From Agriterribacter humi (GTDB lineage Bacteria > Bacteroidota > Bacteroidia > Chitinophagales > Chitinophagaceae), in NCBI RefSeq assembly GCF_009192765.1, contig NZ_VOHQ01000001.1, positions 744,001 through 808,000 of the forward strand: DNA of 64,000 nucleotides, given 5' to 3'. How positions within the stretch are numbered: position 1 is the first letter of the stretch; each line of letters begins with the position of its first letter. The notes below the pieces were generated by a model that was given only the letters and a program-made list of their open reading frames with translations, did no database searches and was not told the origin of the DNA. Positions 36,471 through 50,945 of this stretch are shown piece by piece. Made by a program: the position numbers and the translations under genes.

Positions 36471-37172
36471 ATGACCTGGAAACAACTCTTCACTTCTTCC
36501 GTTGGAAAAAAATTTGTAATGGCGCTTACGGGTGTTTCCCTCATCGCATTTCTTGTGGTGCATGTTGGGATTAATGCCTGCATTTGGGCAAACGATGACG
36601 GCGCCATGTTCAATAAGGCCGCTCATTTTATGGGAGCAACAGTAGTAATCCGCATTCTGGAAGTGGGATTATTTATCGGCATTATTTTACACATTGTACA
36701 GGGATTGATCCTGGAAGTGCAGAACAGGAGCAGACGAAGCATAGGCTACCAGGTTCCTTTGGGCAACCGCGGAAGCAAATGGTACAGCCGCAGTATGGGA
36801 TTACTGGGTACTTTAATCCTGCTTTTCCTGATCATGCATATTTATCATTTCTGGACGCCCAGCCGGCTCGGCGGAATTGGCAATATTCATGAACTGGGCA
36901 TTACTTCCTACGATGGAAAAGAATATCATAATCTGTATGGCGAAATGCTGATCGTATTTCAATCGCTGGCAGTAGTTACTTTATATGTGCTGGCCTGCAT
37001 TTCCTTAGCTTATCATTTAATGCATGGGTTTAACAGCGCATTCAGAACGCTTGGCCTGCACAATCAACGCTATGTGCGTATTGTTCATGCAGCAGGCACG
37101 GCATTTTCAATAATAGTACCATTAGCTTTTGCCATGATGCCGGTATCTGTATATCTGGGGTGGGTGAAATAG
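36471..37172 (+). CDS. sdhC: Succinate dehydrogenase cytochrome b subunit
   Basis: A 233-residue membrane subunit with five predicted membrane helices, the type B form that binds two haems. It has several membrane histidines, among them LVVHVGINACIW (about 27-38), IILHIVQGLILEV (about 80-92), FLIMHIYHFWTP (about 122-133), AYHLMHGFNSAF (about 183-194) and RIVHAAGTAFSII (about 206-218), suitable as haem ligands. N-terminus WKQLFTSSVGKKFVMALTGV is characteristic of Bacteroidota SdhC. It anchors SdhA and SdhB and passes electrons to menaquinone. No separate sdhD, as expected for the type. Confidence 0.94.
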   Translation: MTWKQLFTSSVGKKFVMALTGVSLIAFLVVHVGINACIWANDDGAMFNKAAHFMGATVVIRILEVGLFIGIILHIVQGLILEVQNRSRRSIGYQVPLGNRGSKWYSRSMGLLGTLILLFLIMHIYHFWTPSRLGGIGNIHELGITSYDGKEYHNLYGEMLIVFQSLAVVTLYVLACISLAYHLMHGFNSAFRTLGLHNQRYVRIVHAAGTAFSIIVPLAFAMMPVSVYLGWVK

Positions 37173-37291: not shown

Positions 37292-39268
37292 ATGCTGGAT
37301 TCAAAAATACCTGCAGGACCATTAGAGAATAAATGGAGCGACTACAAAGGCCATGTAAAGCTGGTAAACCCTGCCAATAAACGTAAACTGGAGATCATTG
37401 TTGTAGGAACGGGATTGGCCGGAGCTTCTGCAGCCGCTTCACTGGGTGAATTAGGATACCGCGTAAAAGCCTTTTGTTTCCAGGACTCTCCCCGCAGGGC
37501 GCATTCTATTGCAGCACAGGGCGGCATAAACGCTGCTAAAAATTATCAAAATGACGGCGATTCTGTTTTCCGTCTTTTTTACGATACGATAAAAGGAGGA
37601 GACTACCGTTCGCGGGAAGCCAATGTACATCGTTTGTCAGAAGTAAGCGTTAATATTATTGATCAGTGTGTGGCCCAGGGCGTACCCTTTGCAAGAGAAT
37701 ACAGCGGATTGCTGAATAACCGGTCATTTGGGGGTGTACAGGTAAAAAGAACATTTTATGCTGCCGGTCAAACTGGCCAGCAATTACTGATAGGTGCTTA
37801 CCAGGCGCTCGAGCGGCAGGTAGCACTGGGTAATGTAACCATGTACACGCGTCATGAAATGCTGGATGTGGTGGTAATTGATGACAAAGCCAGAGGTATT
37901 GTTTGCCGAAACCTTGTTACGGGCGAACTCGAAAGACATTTCGGTCATTCGGTATTGTTATGTACCGGCGGTTATGGAAATGTATTTTATTTGTCTACCA
38001 ACGCCATGGGCTGTAATGTTACCGCAGCCTGGAAAGCCCATAAAAAAGGCGCTTTTTTTGCCAATCCCTGCTTTACGCAAATTCACCCTACCTGCATACC
38101 CGTTACCGGCGATCACCAGAGCAAATTAACACTGATGTCGGAATCTCTGCGTAACGATGGCCGCATATGGGTTCCCAAAAAACAGAACGATACCCGTAAA
38201 GCCAATGATATACCGGAAGAAGAACGGGATTATTATTTAGAAAGGAAATATCCGGCCTATGGTAACCTGGTGCCCCGCGATGTGGCTTCACGTGCGGCTA
38301 AAGAAAGATGCGATGCCGGTTACGGCGTAGGCACTACCAAGCAGGCGGTTTATCTCGATTTCCGGTATAATCTTATCAATAAATATGGAAGAGCCGAAGC
38401 CAGCAAGCAGGGAATAGAAAATCCCGACATGGATACACTCATAAGATTGGGCAAAGAAGTAGTAAAGGAAGAATACGGTAATCTCTTTGACATGTATGAA
38501 AAGATTACGGGTGAAAATCCATATGAAGTACCCATGCGCATCTACCCCGCAGTACATTATACGATGGGCGGACTATGGGTAGATTATGAACTCATGACTT
38601 CTATTACCGGCTTATACGCATTAGGAGAAGCAAACTTTAGTGATCATGGCGCCAACCGCCTCGGTGCTTCCGCCTTGATGCAGGGATTGGCAGATGGTTA
38701 TTTCGTTATCCCCTACACCATTGGCAATTACCTGGCCAATGAAATTTCTGTAAAGCCCATTCCCACTACGCATGAAGCTTTTGAAGCAGCCGAAAATGCA
38801 GTGAGAGACCGCATCAGCAGCCTGATGAATATCAAAGGCAAACAGTCGGTAGAAAGTTTTCATAAACGCCTGGGAAAGATCATGTGGGATAAATGTGGCA
38901 TGTCGCGCAATGCAAAAAATCTGAATGAAGCAATAGAAGAAATAAGGTCTCTGAAAAAAGAATTCTGGAGCGATGTAAGGATCCCCGGCGATATCAATGA
39001 AATGAATCCTGAATTAGATAAAGCCAACCGCGTGGCAGATTTTATTGAGCTGGGCGAACTGATATGTATAGACGCTCTTGAAAGGGCGGAAAGCTGTGGC
39101 GGCCATTTCCGGGAAGAAAGCCAGACGGAAGAAGGAGAAGCCCTCCGCCATGATGATCAGTTCCTGTATGTGGCAGCCTGGGAATACAATGGAGAGCACA
39201 ACTGGAAACTGAATAAAGAAGAACTTGAATTTGAACTGGCCAAACCAACGCAGCGGAACTATAAATAA
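37292..39268 (+). CDS. sdhA: Succinate dehydrogenase / fumarate reductase flavoprotein subunit
   Basis: A 658-residue FAD-binding catalytic subunit. The dinucleotide fold [20 protein letters not shown] (about 33-52) and [14 protein letters not shown] (about 70-83, with the His that covalently binds FAD) are present. [19 protein letters not shown] and [14 protein letters not shown] are the usual substrate and FAD regions. Length and the C-terminal [20 protein letters not shown] fit the Bacteroidota form, longer than E. coli SdhA. The stop codon merges into a TTTGAAAAT repeat that starts an inserted cassette separating it from sdhB. Confidence 0.95.
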
Positions 39269-39286
39269 TTTGAAAATTTGAAAATG
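39267..39286 (+). repeat. Left arm of 20-bp inverted repeat bounding the four-helix-bundle cassette
   Basis: The 20 bases AATTTGAAAATTTGAAAATG overlap the sdhA stop codon. The exact reverse complement occurs at 39717-39736, and an identical copy of that complement at 50924-50943. Between here and the ATG at 39349 lie more TTTGAAAAT units and a 14-bp palindrome AATTTGATCAAATT (39307-39320). Confidence 0.85.
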
Positions 39287-39348
39287 AGGCAATTTGAAAA
39301 TATGTTAATTTGATCAAATTCAAATTGCTAACTTTTAAATTTTCAACA

Positions 39349-39754
39349 ATGAGAAATGACAAACCCAATGTAATAGTGGAAAAGACAATAAATTTTGCAC
39401 TATCTGTCATTGAATACTGTGAGAGATAAAAAATTTGTGATAGCCAGGCAGTTATTGCGTTCTTCAACATCTATAGGAGCAAATGTTTTTGAAACGCAAA
39501 ATGCGGAGAGTAAAGCTGATTTCATTCACAAGATGAAAATAGCAGCTAAAGAAGCAAGTGAAACTCTATATTGGCTGACACTCTGTGAAAGAAGTAAAAA
39601 TTATAGGTTTAACAATATGCTGATTGATAATTTGGGTGAGATTATAAAGATATTATCTAAAATAATTTCTTCGGCAAAGGGAAAAATTCCAGGGTTTATT
39701 TGGATATTTCTTTATGCATTTTCAAATTTTCAAATTTTCAAATTAGGGGATTAA
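39349..39754 (+). pseudogene. Frameshifted four-helix-bundle (23S rRNA intervening-sequence-type) protein gene
   Basis: ATG at 39349 opens MRNDKPNVIVEKTINFALSV, then IEYCER and a TAA at 39427. One frame over, the reading continues DKKFVIARQLLRSSTSIGAN, then ETQNAESKADFIHKMKIAAK, to [18 protein letters not shown] and a tail that runs through the right repeat to 39754. Together the two parts rebuild a normal member of the S23 intervening-sequence/four-helix-bundle family (about 120 residues). One single-base frameshift separates them near 39421-39430. A sequencing error cannot be excluded. It sits between sdhA and sdhB and is bounded by perfect 20-bp inverted repeats, so it looks like an inserted, decaying cassette. 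Confidence 0.8.
39717..39744 (-). repeat. Right arm of the four-helix-bundle cassette repeat
   Basis: CATTTTCAAATTTTCAAATT at 39717-39736 is the exact reverse complement of the left arm, followed by one more TTTTCAAATT unit to 39744. It ends 12 bases before the sdhB ATG and overlaps the end of the broken gene's frame. Confidence 0.85.
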
Positions 39755-39756
39755 TT

Positions 39757-40521
39757 ATGGACCATTATACAATGAACCTCACCTTAAAGGTGTGGAAACA
39801 AAAAAACAAAAGCGAAAGAGGACATTTTGAAACCTACCAGGTAAAGGATATTTCTTCTGAAATGTCGTTCCTCGAAATGTTCGATGTACTGAATGAAAAA
39901 TTAATTGAGGAAAACAGGGAGCCCATAGCCTTTGACCATGATTGCCGCGAAGGGATTTGCGGCATGTGCTCAATGTATATCAATGGCCGACCGCACGGGC
40001 CATGGCATGGCACTACTACCTGCCAGTTGCATATGAGGGCGTTTAAAGATGGCGATACCATTGTAGTTGAGCCCTGGCGCGCCAATGCTTTTCCCGTAAT
40101 TAAAGATCTTATTGTAGATCGTCACGCTTTCGACAGGATCATACAGGCGGGCGGCTATATTTCGGTAAACACAGGTAATGCGGTAGACGGAAATTCCATT
40201 CCTGTTGAAAAAGAAAAAGCAGACCAGTCTTTTGCCGCTGCCGCCTGTATAGGATGCGGCGCCTGCGTGGCAGCCTGTAAAAATAGTTCGGCTATGCTTT
40301 TTGTATCTGCTAAAGTTGCCCACCTCGCTTTATTGCCACAGGGTGCACCGGAGAAAAAGAGCCGGGTACTCAACATGATAGAGCAAATGGATAAGGAGGG
40401 TTTTGGTTCATGCACCATGACGGAAGCTTGTGAAGCCGTTTGCCCCAAAGAAATTTCTGTAGATAATATTGCAAGGTTAAATAAAGAATACCTTTCCGCT
40501 GCAAGCACTATTGATAAATAG
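39757..40521 (+). CDS. sdhB: Succinate dehydrogenase / fumarate reductase iron-sulfur subunit
   Basis: A 254-residue iron-sulfur protein. The [2Fe-2S] ligand region is [20 protein letters not shown] with CQLH further on; the [4Fe-4S] and [3Fe-4S] clusters use [17 protein letters not shown] and [15 protein letters not shown]. It carries electrons from the SdhA flavin to SdhC. The ATG at 39757 ([12 protein letters not shown]) is chosen over a longer frame from 39700, which lies inside the repeat of the inserted cassette; MNLTLKV, five codons in, is another option. The next gene starts four bases after its stop. Confidence 0.94.
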
Positions 40522-50602: not shown

Positions 50603-50945
50603 AAAAAGAACCAAAATACAAATGCCAAATCACAAATAAAGCACGAATATTCAATTTCGAAATTCGAAGTGAATACGGATAGTTTACCGCATTGTAATCC
50701 TCTTTTTTTAATAAAAACGGAAAATCCAAAAGAGGCTGTGAGCTGTCAGTTTTGAGCTATGGACAAGGAGTATTCATCCTATGATTCGTTGTTGCCATTT
50801 TTTAATAGTCAACACTGACACTTCATCCATTTCCACACCAGCCTACTGCGCGGTCTGACGCTCCTTCGTTGCGTACCGACCGCCACATTTCCACCGGTCT
50901 ATTCAGTCGGGCAGGCATTTCCACATTTTCAAATTTTCAAATTAC
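50603..50945. repeat. Intergenic repeat mosaic with third copy of the 20-bp cassette repeat
   Basis: No gene is seen. Segments include TTCAATTTCGAAATTCGAAG, AGGCTGTGAGCTGTCAGTTT (related to the GTCAGCTTTCAGC family), and a GC-richer block with GGTCTGACGCTCCTTCGTTG. The last element, 50924-50943, is CATTTTCAAATTTTCAAATT, identical to the right arm of the sdh cassette repeat; it begins two bases after the stop of the LuxE-like gene in that gene's direction. Confidence 0.7.

Follow-up and report, generated by a model that had tools for sequence, protein, structure and literature searches.

The repetitive extragenic palindromes (REPs) and bacterial interspersed mosaic elements (BIMEs) that go with REP-associated tyrosine transposases (RAYTs) are scattered short extragenic repeats that contain palindromes and are served by a catalytic transposase. 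The intervening sequence (IVS) of the Coxiella 23S rRNA gene has a 28-bp terminal stem, carries heptamers just 5' of the start of its S23 open reading frame (ORF) and is cleaved by RNase III; the ORF is decaying in some strains, and an S23 protein (S23p) has been described as forming a pentameric ring (PMC4990558; papers cited here by PMC number are represented by excerpts). Here we examine a block between sdhA and sdhB of Agriterribacter humi (Chitinophagaceae), within a stretch of 64,000 nucleotides that we call the window (assembly GCF_009192765.1, contig NZ_VOHQ01000001.1, positions 744,001 to 808,000; all coordinates below are positions in the window). A broken gene of the S23, or four-helix-bundle (FHB), family lies there between two inverted arrays of an 8-nt unit. 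We consider it likely, at a probability of about 0.72, that this gene and its arrays are the dead remains of an IVS-like mobile element, in which an S23/FHB gene between inverted short-unit arrays sits between the genes of an operon.

Tandem repeats of similar unit length have been described as well. The short tandemly repeated repetitive (STRR) sequences of cyanobacteria and the heptamers of Xanthomonas and Nostoc are 7-nt tandem repeats that lie mostly between genes, near one neighbouring gene, and that also occur inside operons, as at pecE-pecF and hupS-hupL; STRR sequences form hairpins (PMC4692102, PMC2670836). Many bacteria show an over-representation of heptameric repeats, for which slippage has been suggested as an origin (PMC4692102). 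The excerpts of these papers link no protein to the repeats, and the words 'four helix' are absent from that of PMC4692102, whereas the arrays described here flank FHB genes. The TAACTGA repeats of Beggiatoaceae, Cyanobacteria and some Bacteroidetes are intergenic 7-nt direct repeats that, like the arrays beside FHB genes, stand at gene boundaries and are patchy across phyla; unlike FHB arms, they lie mostly just 5' of start codons and comprise one indirect repeat against 169 direct sets, and the excerpted text contains neither 'four helix' nor 'S23' (PMC4679880). In searches of open-licence PMC papers, with subscription papers and preprints outside the search, we found no report of a link between FHB proteins and intergenic repeat arrays except the heptamers of the Coxiella IVS.

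The cassette between sdhA and sdhB

The first-pass annotation of the window had described the block as bounded by an exact 20-bp inverted repeat whose left arm overlaps the sdhA stop codon, and both parts of that description hold. Positions 39267-39286 and 39717-39736 are exact reverse complements over 20 bp, whereas shuffling the block 200 times gives exact inverted repeats of at most 14. A second register, 39266-39285 with 39726-39745, is equally exact because the arms are tandem octamers; the degenerate 8-nt unit of both is AATNNGNN. The left arm (39267-39314, plus strand) consists of about six degenerate octamers (AATTTGAA AATTTGAA AATGAGGC AATTTGAA AATATGTT AATTTGAT) and overlaps the stop codon by 2 nt; the right arm (39718-39745, minus strand) consists of about three and a half inverted copies of the left-arm octamer and ends 11 nt 5' of the sdhB start, and the two arrays thereby span from the stop codon of one gene to shortly 5' of the start of the next. 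What was described as a 20-bp repeat is therefore a single register of a pair of octamer arrays in opposite orientation, not a classical transposon end. When the block is folded as RNA, the arms close the whole cassette (-115.9 kcal/mol, z -3.55, a value in which the share of the arms is not separated).

FHB is the only family that a profile search matched between the arms; no transposase was found there. The main part of the gene lies in its second frame (39395-39754, plus strand; 23S_rRNA_IVP, four helix bundle protein) and belongs to the S23 family by the curated cut-offs of PF05635 and TIGR02436 (E 3.8e-17 and 8.5e-22; 62.9 bits against 33.8 and 77.4 against 24). Its homology begins at about 39424, and its 3' end runs into the right arm. 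The 5' part occupies the first frame (39349-39429, plus strand, from the ATG at 39349 to the TAA at 39427-39429), as placed by alignment with an intact 138-aa copy from the same genus (genome G028, locus L133), which also belongs to both families; searched alone by profile, the 39-aa 5' piece matched no family. Relative to the intact copy the window gene lacks 11 nt, with the deletion junction at about 39423/39424, and this breaks the gene where the first-pass annotation had placed the break, near 39421-39430. The closest solved relative of the intact copy is PDB 2rld (E 5e-20), an entry that holds five chains. A profile match to chromodomain helicases (E 0.004) was taken as chance.

Compared with the Coxiella IVS as published, the cassette likewise has an S23 ORF within complementary stem-forming termini (the stem here is that of a computed fold) and tandem units, and decaying ORFs occur in both. 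Unlike that IVS, which is located within an rRNA gene and undergoes RNase III cleavage, it stands between protein genes, has an 8-nt unit and is accompanied by scattered solo arrays (PMC4990558). Because profile identities place the block between sdhA and sdhB and not in an rRNA gene, we file it as an IVS-like S23 element and not as an rRNA IVS. The host genes are sdhC (cytochrome b subunit; 36471-37172; TIGR02046, E 1.4e-43), sdhA (flavoprotein subunit; 37292-39268, stop codon TAA at 39266-39268; NF005749, 1178 bits) and sdhB (iron-sulfur subunit; 39757-40521; NF005746, E 9.5e-132), all on the plus strand, with 488 nt between the end of sdhA and the start of sdhB. Profiles and exact reverse complements thus agree with the earlier description of an FHB cassette with a 20-bp inverted repeat between these two genes.

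Arms and repeat period across FHB genes

We compared the 180 nt on each side of 145 FHB loci. The inverted match between the two sides exceeded the direct match in 124, with 5 ties (p 6e-19), against 47 of 140 control pieces 620-800 nt away and 35 of 141 at 400-580 nt. These loci are not all independent, some genomes being represented twice (for example L133/L068, L194/L065, L177/L115 and L149/L114, at distance 0.00), and loci with flanks shorter than 170-180 nt were left out of the arm tests. Measured against shuffles, the inverted match reached p 0.01 in 59 of 76 loci from the closest relatives and in 17 of 28 family loci. Within a cassette the two arms also fitted one another better than they fitted the arms of other cassettes (mean 40.8 versus 23.9 across 41 own-genome and family loci, p 2e-4), the own partner being the best match in 21 of the 41. 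The same comparison confined to a single site gave p 0.0002, 0.01 and 0.0006 in the three largest site groups (S1, S2 and S3); groups S11 and S12 were too small for it. Because arms match their own partner better than they match other cassettes, arm sequence varies between cassettes with complementarity kept. In an earlier arm test, which scored more strictly and had shared repeat families mixed in it, 12 of 89 loci came out above the 95th percentile for mismatched pairs, where about 4 would be expected. The inverted-versus-direct and within-versus-between tests then took its place, with a scoring chosen after that first result; the phylum and plasmid sets described below were run after this choice.

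The length of the repeat unit follows the protein. Tandem periodicity exceeded that of 20 out of 20 shuffles in 169 of 234 arms and in 25 of 234 control pieces, the best periods being 8 (112 arms), 7 (25), 14 (21), 15 (8) and 9 (3). In FHB clade I, which includes the window copy, the period was 8 in 84 of the 88 loci with flanks and undecided in the remaining 4, and in clade II it was 7 in 22 of 22. These clades were drawn, as ancestors of site groups, after the periods had been seen. A tree of 141 FHB tips that includes the phylum set and is independent of the clade drawing, but uses the same loci, required 5 period changes, where shuffled labels gave a mean of 42 and a minimum of 36 (undecided tips were pruned). 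At site S7 three clade I copies have period 8 and one clade II copy has period 7, so that at this site the period tracks the protein rather than the location. By these comparisons the repeat period, 8 or 7 nt, is a stable trait of the FHB protein lineage.

A phylum-wide sample of 28 loci outside the family gave similar figures: the inverted match exceeded the direct match in 22 (p 8e-4), the own partner was the best match in 16, arms scored 37.9 within against 22.4 between cassettes (p 2e-4), the period was 7 in 21 loci and 8 in 7, and placement was in sense with the neighbours in 23 of the 26 that could be judged. Plasmid records with an FHB relative number 25, and 12 of them were analysed (10 cyanobacterial, one Bernardetia, one Treponema saccharophilum). 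Every one of the 12 FHB copies has 7-nt arrays in both arms, often perfect, and the inverted match exceeded the direct match in 9 (p 0.004). No 7-nt arrays were seen beside other genes on the same plasmid stretches (0 of 13, these being the genes, out of 30 other complete coding sequences, that had enough flank and were clear of the FHB arms). We liken the plasmid arrays to STRR sequences by comparison, not by test. FHB relatives in at least three bacterial phyla carry such flanks, a distribution indicative of a family of wandering elements that has gone unrecognised. On two of the cyanobacterial plasmids (L316 and L318) cas1 and cas2 enclose an antisense FHB gene that has heptamer arrays to its left and right.

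Occupied sites and gene-less arrays

The sdhB gene was found in 113 of 117 family genomes (E 1e-60); 110 of the 116 places listed were retrieved, of which 105 had both ends of the sdhA-sdhB gap and 5 had no sdhA end. An FHB gene occupies 18 of the 105 gaps, always in the direction of the operon, and was not found in the other 87, of which 78 are shorter than 150 nt. The first-pass annotation had taken the block to be foreign to ordinary sdh operons, and had made this turn on the spacing in near relatives and on further copies of the repeat. Most gaps are indeed short and free of FHB genes, and further copies of the repeat occur in other parts of the genome, but the block is not private to this genome: it is shared, with its gene intact and in the same position, by some though not all close relatives. 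When 103 genomes are placed on an sdhA tree (2 more of the 105 were too short), FHB presence is scattered, with 14 changes against a mean of 16.9 and a minimum of 13 for shuffled labels, and the FHB genes at the gap stem from several FHB lineages. One old insertion is rejected on these two grounds, and the gap appears, on phylogeny, to have been used repeatedly. Since G028 and other relatives carry an intact gene there, the window copy was probably inherited and broken later. Its closest FHB relatives are in records labelled Chitinophagaceae. Of the best 80 of 506 relatives, 30 lie at sdhA-sdhB (cluster S1 minus the own locus), among them one from Flectobacillus (L098) and one from a bin labelled Cytophagia (L107); at L105 the FHB gene is 5' of sdhA.

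In three gaps (L183, L191 and L229) a pair of inverted arms without a gene can be made out by eye. At L189 the gap contains an ORF of the GxxExxY family (TIGR04256) instead of an FHB gene, and L240 looks similar by eye. The GxxExxY genes of these two loci and of three loci in the own genome (L271-L273) look, again by eye, bracketed by inverted degenerate repeats whose units, such as ACGCAGATT and GTCTGAATC, differ from the cassette octamer. Seven further gaps are long and have neither FHB nor GxxExxY matches (L159, L166, L187, L190, L193, L209 and L214). The sdhA-sdhB gap seems permissive to insertions.

Clustered by both neighbours, 122 FHB loci fall into 12 recurrent sites and 40 single ones. 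The flanking pairs include what we take, from protein sequences recognised and not searched, to be argC-argD, hlyD-macB, accB-accC, scoA-scoB and hisA-hisF. Repeat units differ between genomes at the argC-argD site, and within the own genus the hisA-hisF site, judged by eye, has a single FHB type in six genomes, a different one in L305 and a remnant in L311. Both neighbours are in sense with the FHB gene at 60 of 70 sites, both opposite at 4 and mixed at 6, in a count that relies on crude ORF calling (longest open frame) and treats each of the 28 unclustered phylum loci as its own site. A simple frame test found 9 of the 122 copies broken, six of them at the sdh site. Among intact copies the median dN/dS was 0.10 at S1 (34 usable pairs of 300), 0.14 at S2 (21 of 55), 0.21 at S3 (7 of 28) and 0.10 at S6 (2 of 10), synonymous sites being too diverged in most pairs. 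With such ratios and so few broken copies, a functional protein is kept in most, which fits an element that needs its protein or a useful gene. A four helix bundle gene of Flavobacterium columnare, counted as a phage element, lies between the guanylate kinase and nicotinate-nucleotide adenylyltransferase genes, a position that fits the inter-gene pattern (PMC5524665).

Arrays also occur without a gene. The pattern AATNNGNNAATNNGNNAAT (a two-unit core plus the next AAT) matches 8 times in the window against 0.14 expected, and two of these matches form a gene-less array at 50917-50943 (minus strand), just 3' of the stop of a minus-strand ORF (crude ORF calling). Across the genome a 17-nt arm core has 20 exact matches at 15 places, two of them the arms of the window cassette; allowing up to 1 mismatch gives 34 matches against 1 for a reversed control. 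We inspected 21 places with arrays (20 of the 25 that lie outside the cassette and have loci, plus L003). At 12 of them an ORF in the sense of the array ends no more than 20 nt short of the array core or overlaps it by as much as 13 nt, and at 16 such an ORF ends within 100 nt, the exceptions being L003, L034, L038, L043 and L048. No exact octamer strings were seen within 1.5 kb of the other 12 FHB genes of the genome, which have their own units, weak arms or none. The two with none (L018 and L020, C12) are near-identical, longer FHB-like ORFs of about 190 aa and seem to represent a different, repeat-free FHB lineage. Scattered short extragenic repeats are common to this system and to REP, BIME and RAYT systems, but here they are tandem arrays and accompany an FHB family without known catalysis.

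In 98 family genomes the octamer pattern matches 2149 times against 371 for the reversed control, with 51 genomes above and 6 below their control. Matches are present in 38 of 50 genomes that have a clade-I-like FHB gene and in 15 of 48 that lack one (Fisher 1.5e-5, Spearman 0.55). The reversed control pattern is also frequent in five genomes (G009, G049, G051, G071 and G096), which may hold other octamer families.

Mechanism, alternatives and meaning

The first-pass annotation had proposed a mobile IVS-type element that lands after genes without breaking them. An IVS-like element is well supported by the shared protein family, the closing stem, the recurrence at many gene pairs, the placement from stop codon to start codon and the parts held in common with Coxiella; the proposal is altered in that the repeat is not a classical end and the copy is not private. 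We envisage an element whose left arm stands at the stop codon of the preceding gene and whose right arm lies just 5' of the following start codon. That the FHB lineage sets the period suggests a protein that contacts the repeat unit, and such binding could be what fixes the period. In RNA the two arms would form a stem that closes the cassette, and the cassette would be transcribed with its operon and either cut out by RNase III, by analogy with rRNA IVSs, or tolerated. The element and its arrays may spread to new gaps with neither a reverse transcriptase nor a Y1 transposase, by way of host replication or repair.

Several observations weigh against this account. No movement was observed, and no clean pair of empty and filled sites with near-identical flanks, or target-site duplication, was obtained. 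The direct match exceeded the inverted one in 16 of the 145 loci and did not fall below it in 3 of the 12 plasmid loci (L318, L324 and L326), which have repeats in both orientations. The other cassettes of the own genome are weak examples, since only 2 of 13 own loci reached p 0.01 against shuffles; L018 and L020 lack arms, and those of L013 and L019 are weak. Same-site arm tests were not significant at S4-S10 (p 0.07-0.67, with 3-5 loci each). An 8-nt period is not a strict mark of clade I, as 7 of the 28 phylum loci have it outside that clade; on the tree of 141 tips it is found outside clade I in a 5-tip group, the type B group and two single tips. Some genes lie antisense (S4, L265, L290 and L300). 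Five genomes have at least 20 array matches and no clade-I-like FHB gene, and two have strong FHB matches and fewer than 3 array matches. Structure prediction from the lone sequence was of no use (predicted local distance difference test score, pLDDT, 44). The Coxiella authors, for their part, suggest that no S23p is produced in vivo and that the RNA is the more important part (PMC4990558).

Other enzymes might move the arrays. The arrays could be repeats of the REP or miniature inverted-repeat type moved by Y1 (RAYT-type) transposases, with FHB genes as passengers. In favour of this, array counts correlate with Y1_Tnp counts (rho 0.38, and 0.29 as a partial correlation given FHB, p 0.004). 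There are 10 Y1_Tnp matches in the own genome, none of them in the window among the 7 matches listed, and among genomes without Y1_Tnp the excess of arrays with FHB genes is not significant (5 of 9 with, 2 of 15 without, p 0.06). The correlation of arrays with FHB is nonetheless the stronger and survives control for Y1 (partial 0.51), genome G078 has 193 pattern matches and 6 FHB genes with no Y1_Tnp or RVT_1 match, and a Y1 enzyme does not explain a period that follows the FHB lineage; we regard this explanation as improbable. Spread by reverse transcription in trans, with FHB acting like Avd, is less probable by half. Avd, of diversity-generating retroelements, is a four-helix-bundle protein related to PF05635 and acts with a reverse transcriptase and template and variable repeats (PMC10053308), and arrays do correlate weakly with RVT_1 (partial 0.22, p 0.03), a point that, with the Y1 correlation, also counts against an FHB-driven element. 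The own genome (G000), however, has 0 RVT_1 matches at E 0.001, so that by this profile it lacks the reverse transcriptase that such retroelements need, and arrays accompany FHB in genomes free of RVT_1 (23 of 32 with FHB against 9 of 34 without). Neither a reverse transcriptase nor a Y1 transposase is supported as a necessary driver, given G078 and the FHB correlation that survives Y1 control.

The protein might also have little to do with the repeats. As an ordinary accessory operon gene amid unrelated intergenic decoration, FHB would account for the purifying selection on intact copies and for the occupation of one site in related genomes. It would fit poorly with the patchy presence at the sdh gap (18 of the 103 genomes on the sdhA tree, scattered nearly as in shuffles), with several FHB lineages at one site, with the broken copies, and with arms matched within the cassette and a period tied to the lineage, and we give it slightly less credence than transport by Y1 enzymes. 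Polymerase slippage could make 7-8-nt intergenic repeats anywhere, with selection keeping pairs that form stabilising hairpins and FHB incidental; heptamers are, after all, widespread with slippage proposed (PMC4692102), and the three sdh gaps with arms and no gene would suit it. Set against this are the period that follows the protein lineage and the plasmid genes that lack arrays beside the FHB copies that have them, and slippage seems to us very improbable, about on a par with the Avd-like explanation.

S23 proteins of IVSs, intergenic heptamers and STRR sequences have each been described with their origin or function unclear (PMC4990558, PMC4692102, PMC2670836). A protein lineage that predicts the repeat period would offer one testable cause for all three. 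We put forward tentatively, and at somewhat less than even odds, that S23/FHB proteins are the part that binds the repeats in a large class of mobile DNA not recognised before. Each lineage would recognise a unit of 7 or 8 nt, make or maintain inverted arrays of it round its own gene and seed gene-less arrays behind other genes, and rRNA IVSs, STRR sequences and other intergenic heptamers would all come from a single such system. If this is true, many genes annotated as 'four helix bundle protein' would be element genes, and many odd intergenic repeats would be their footprints.

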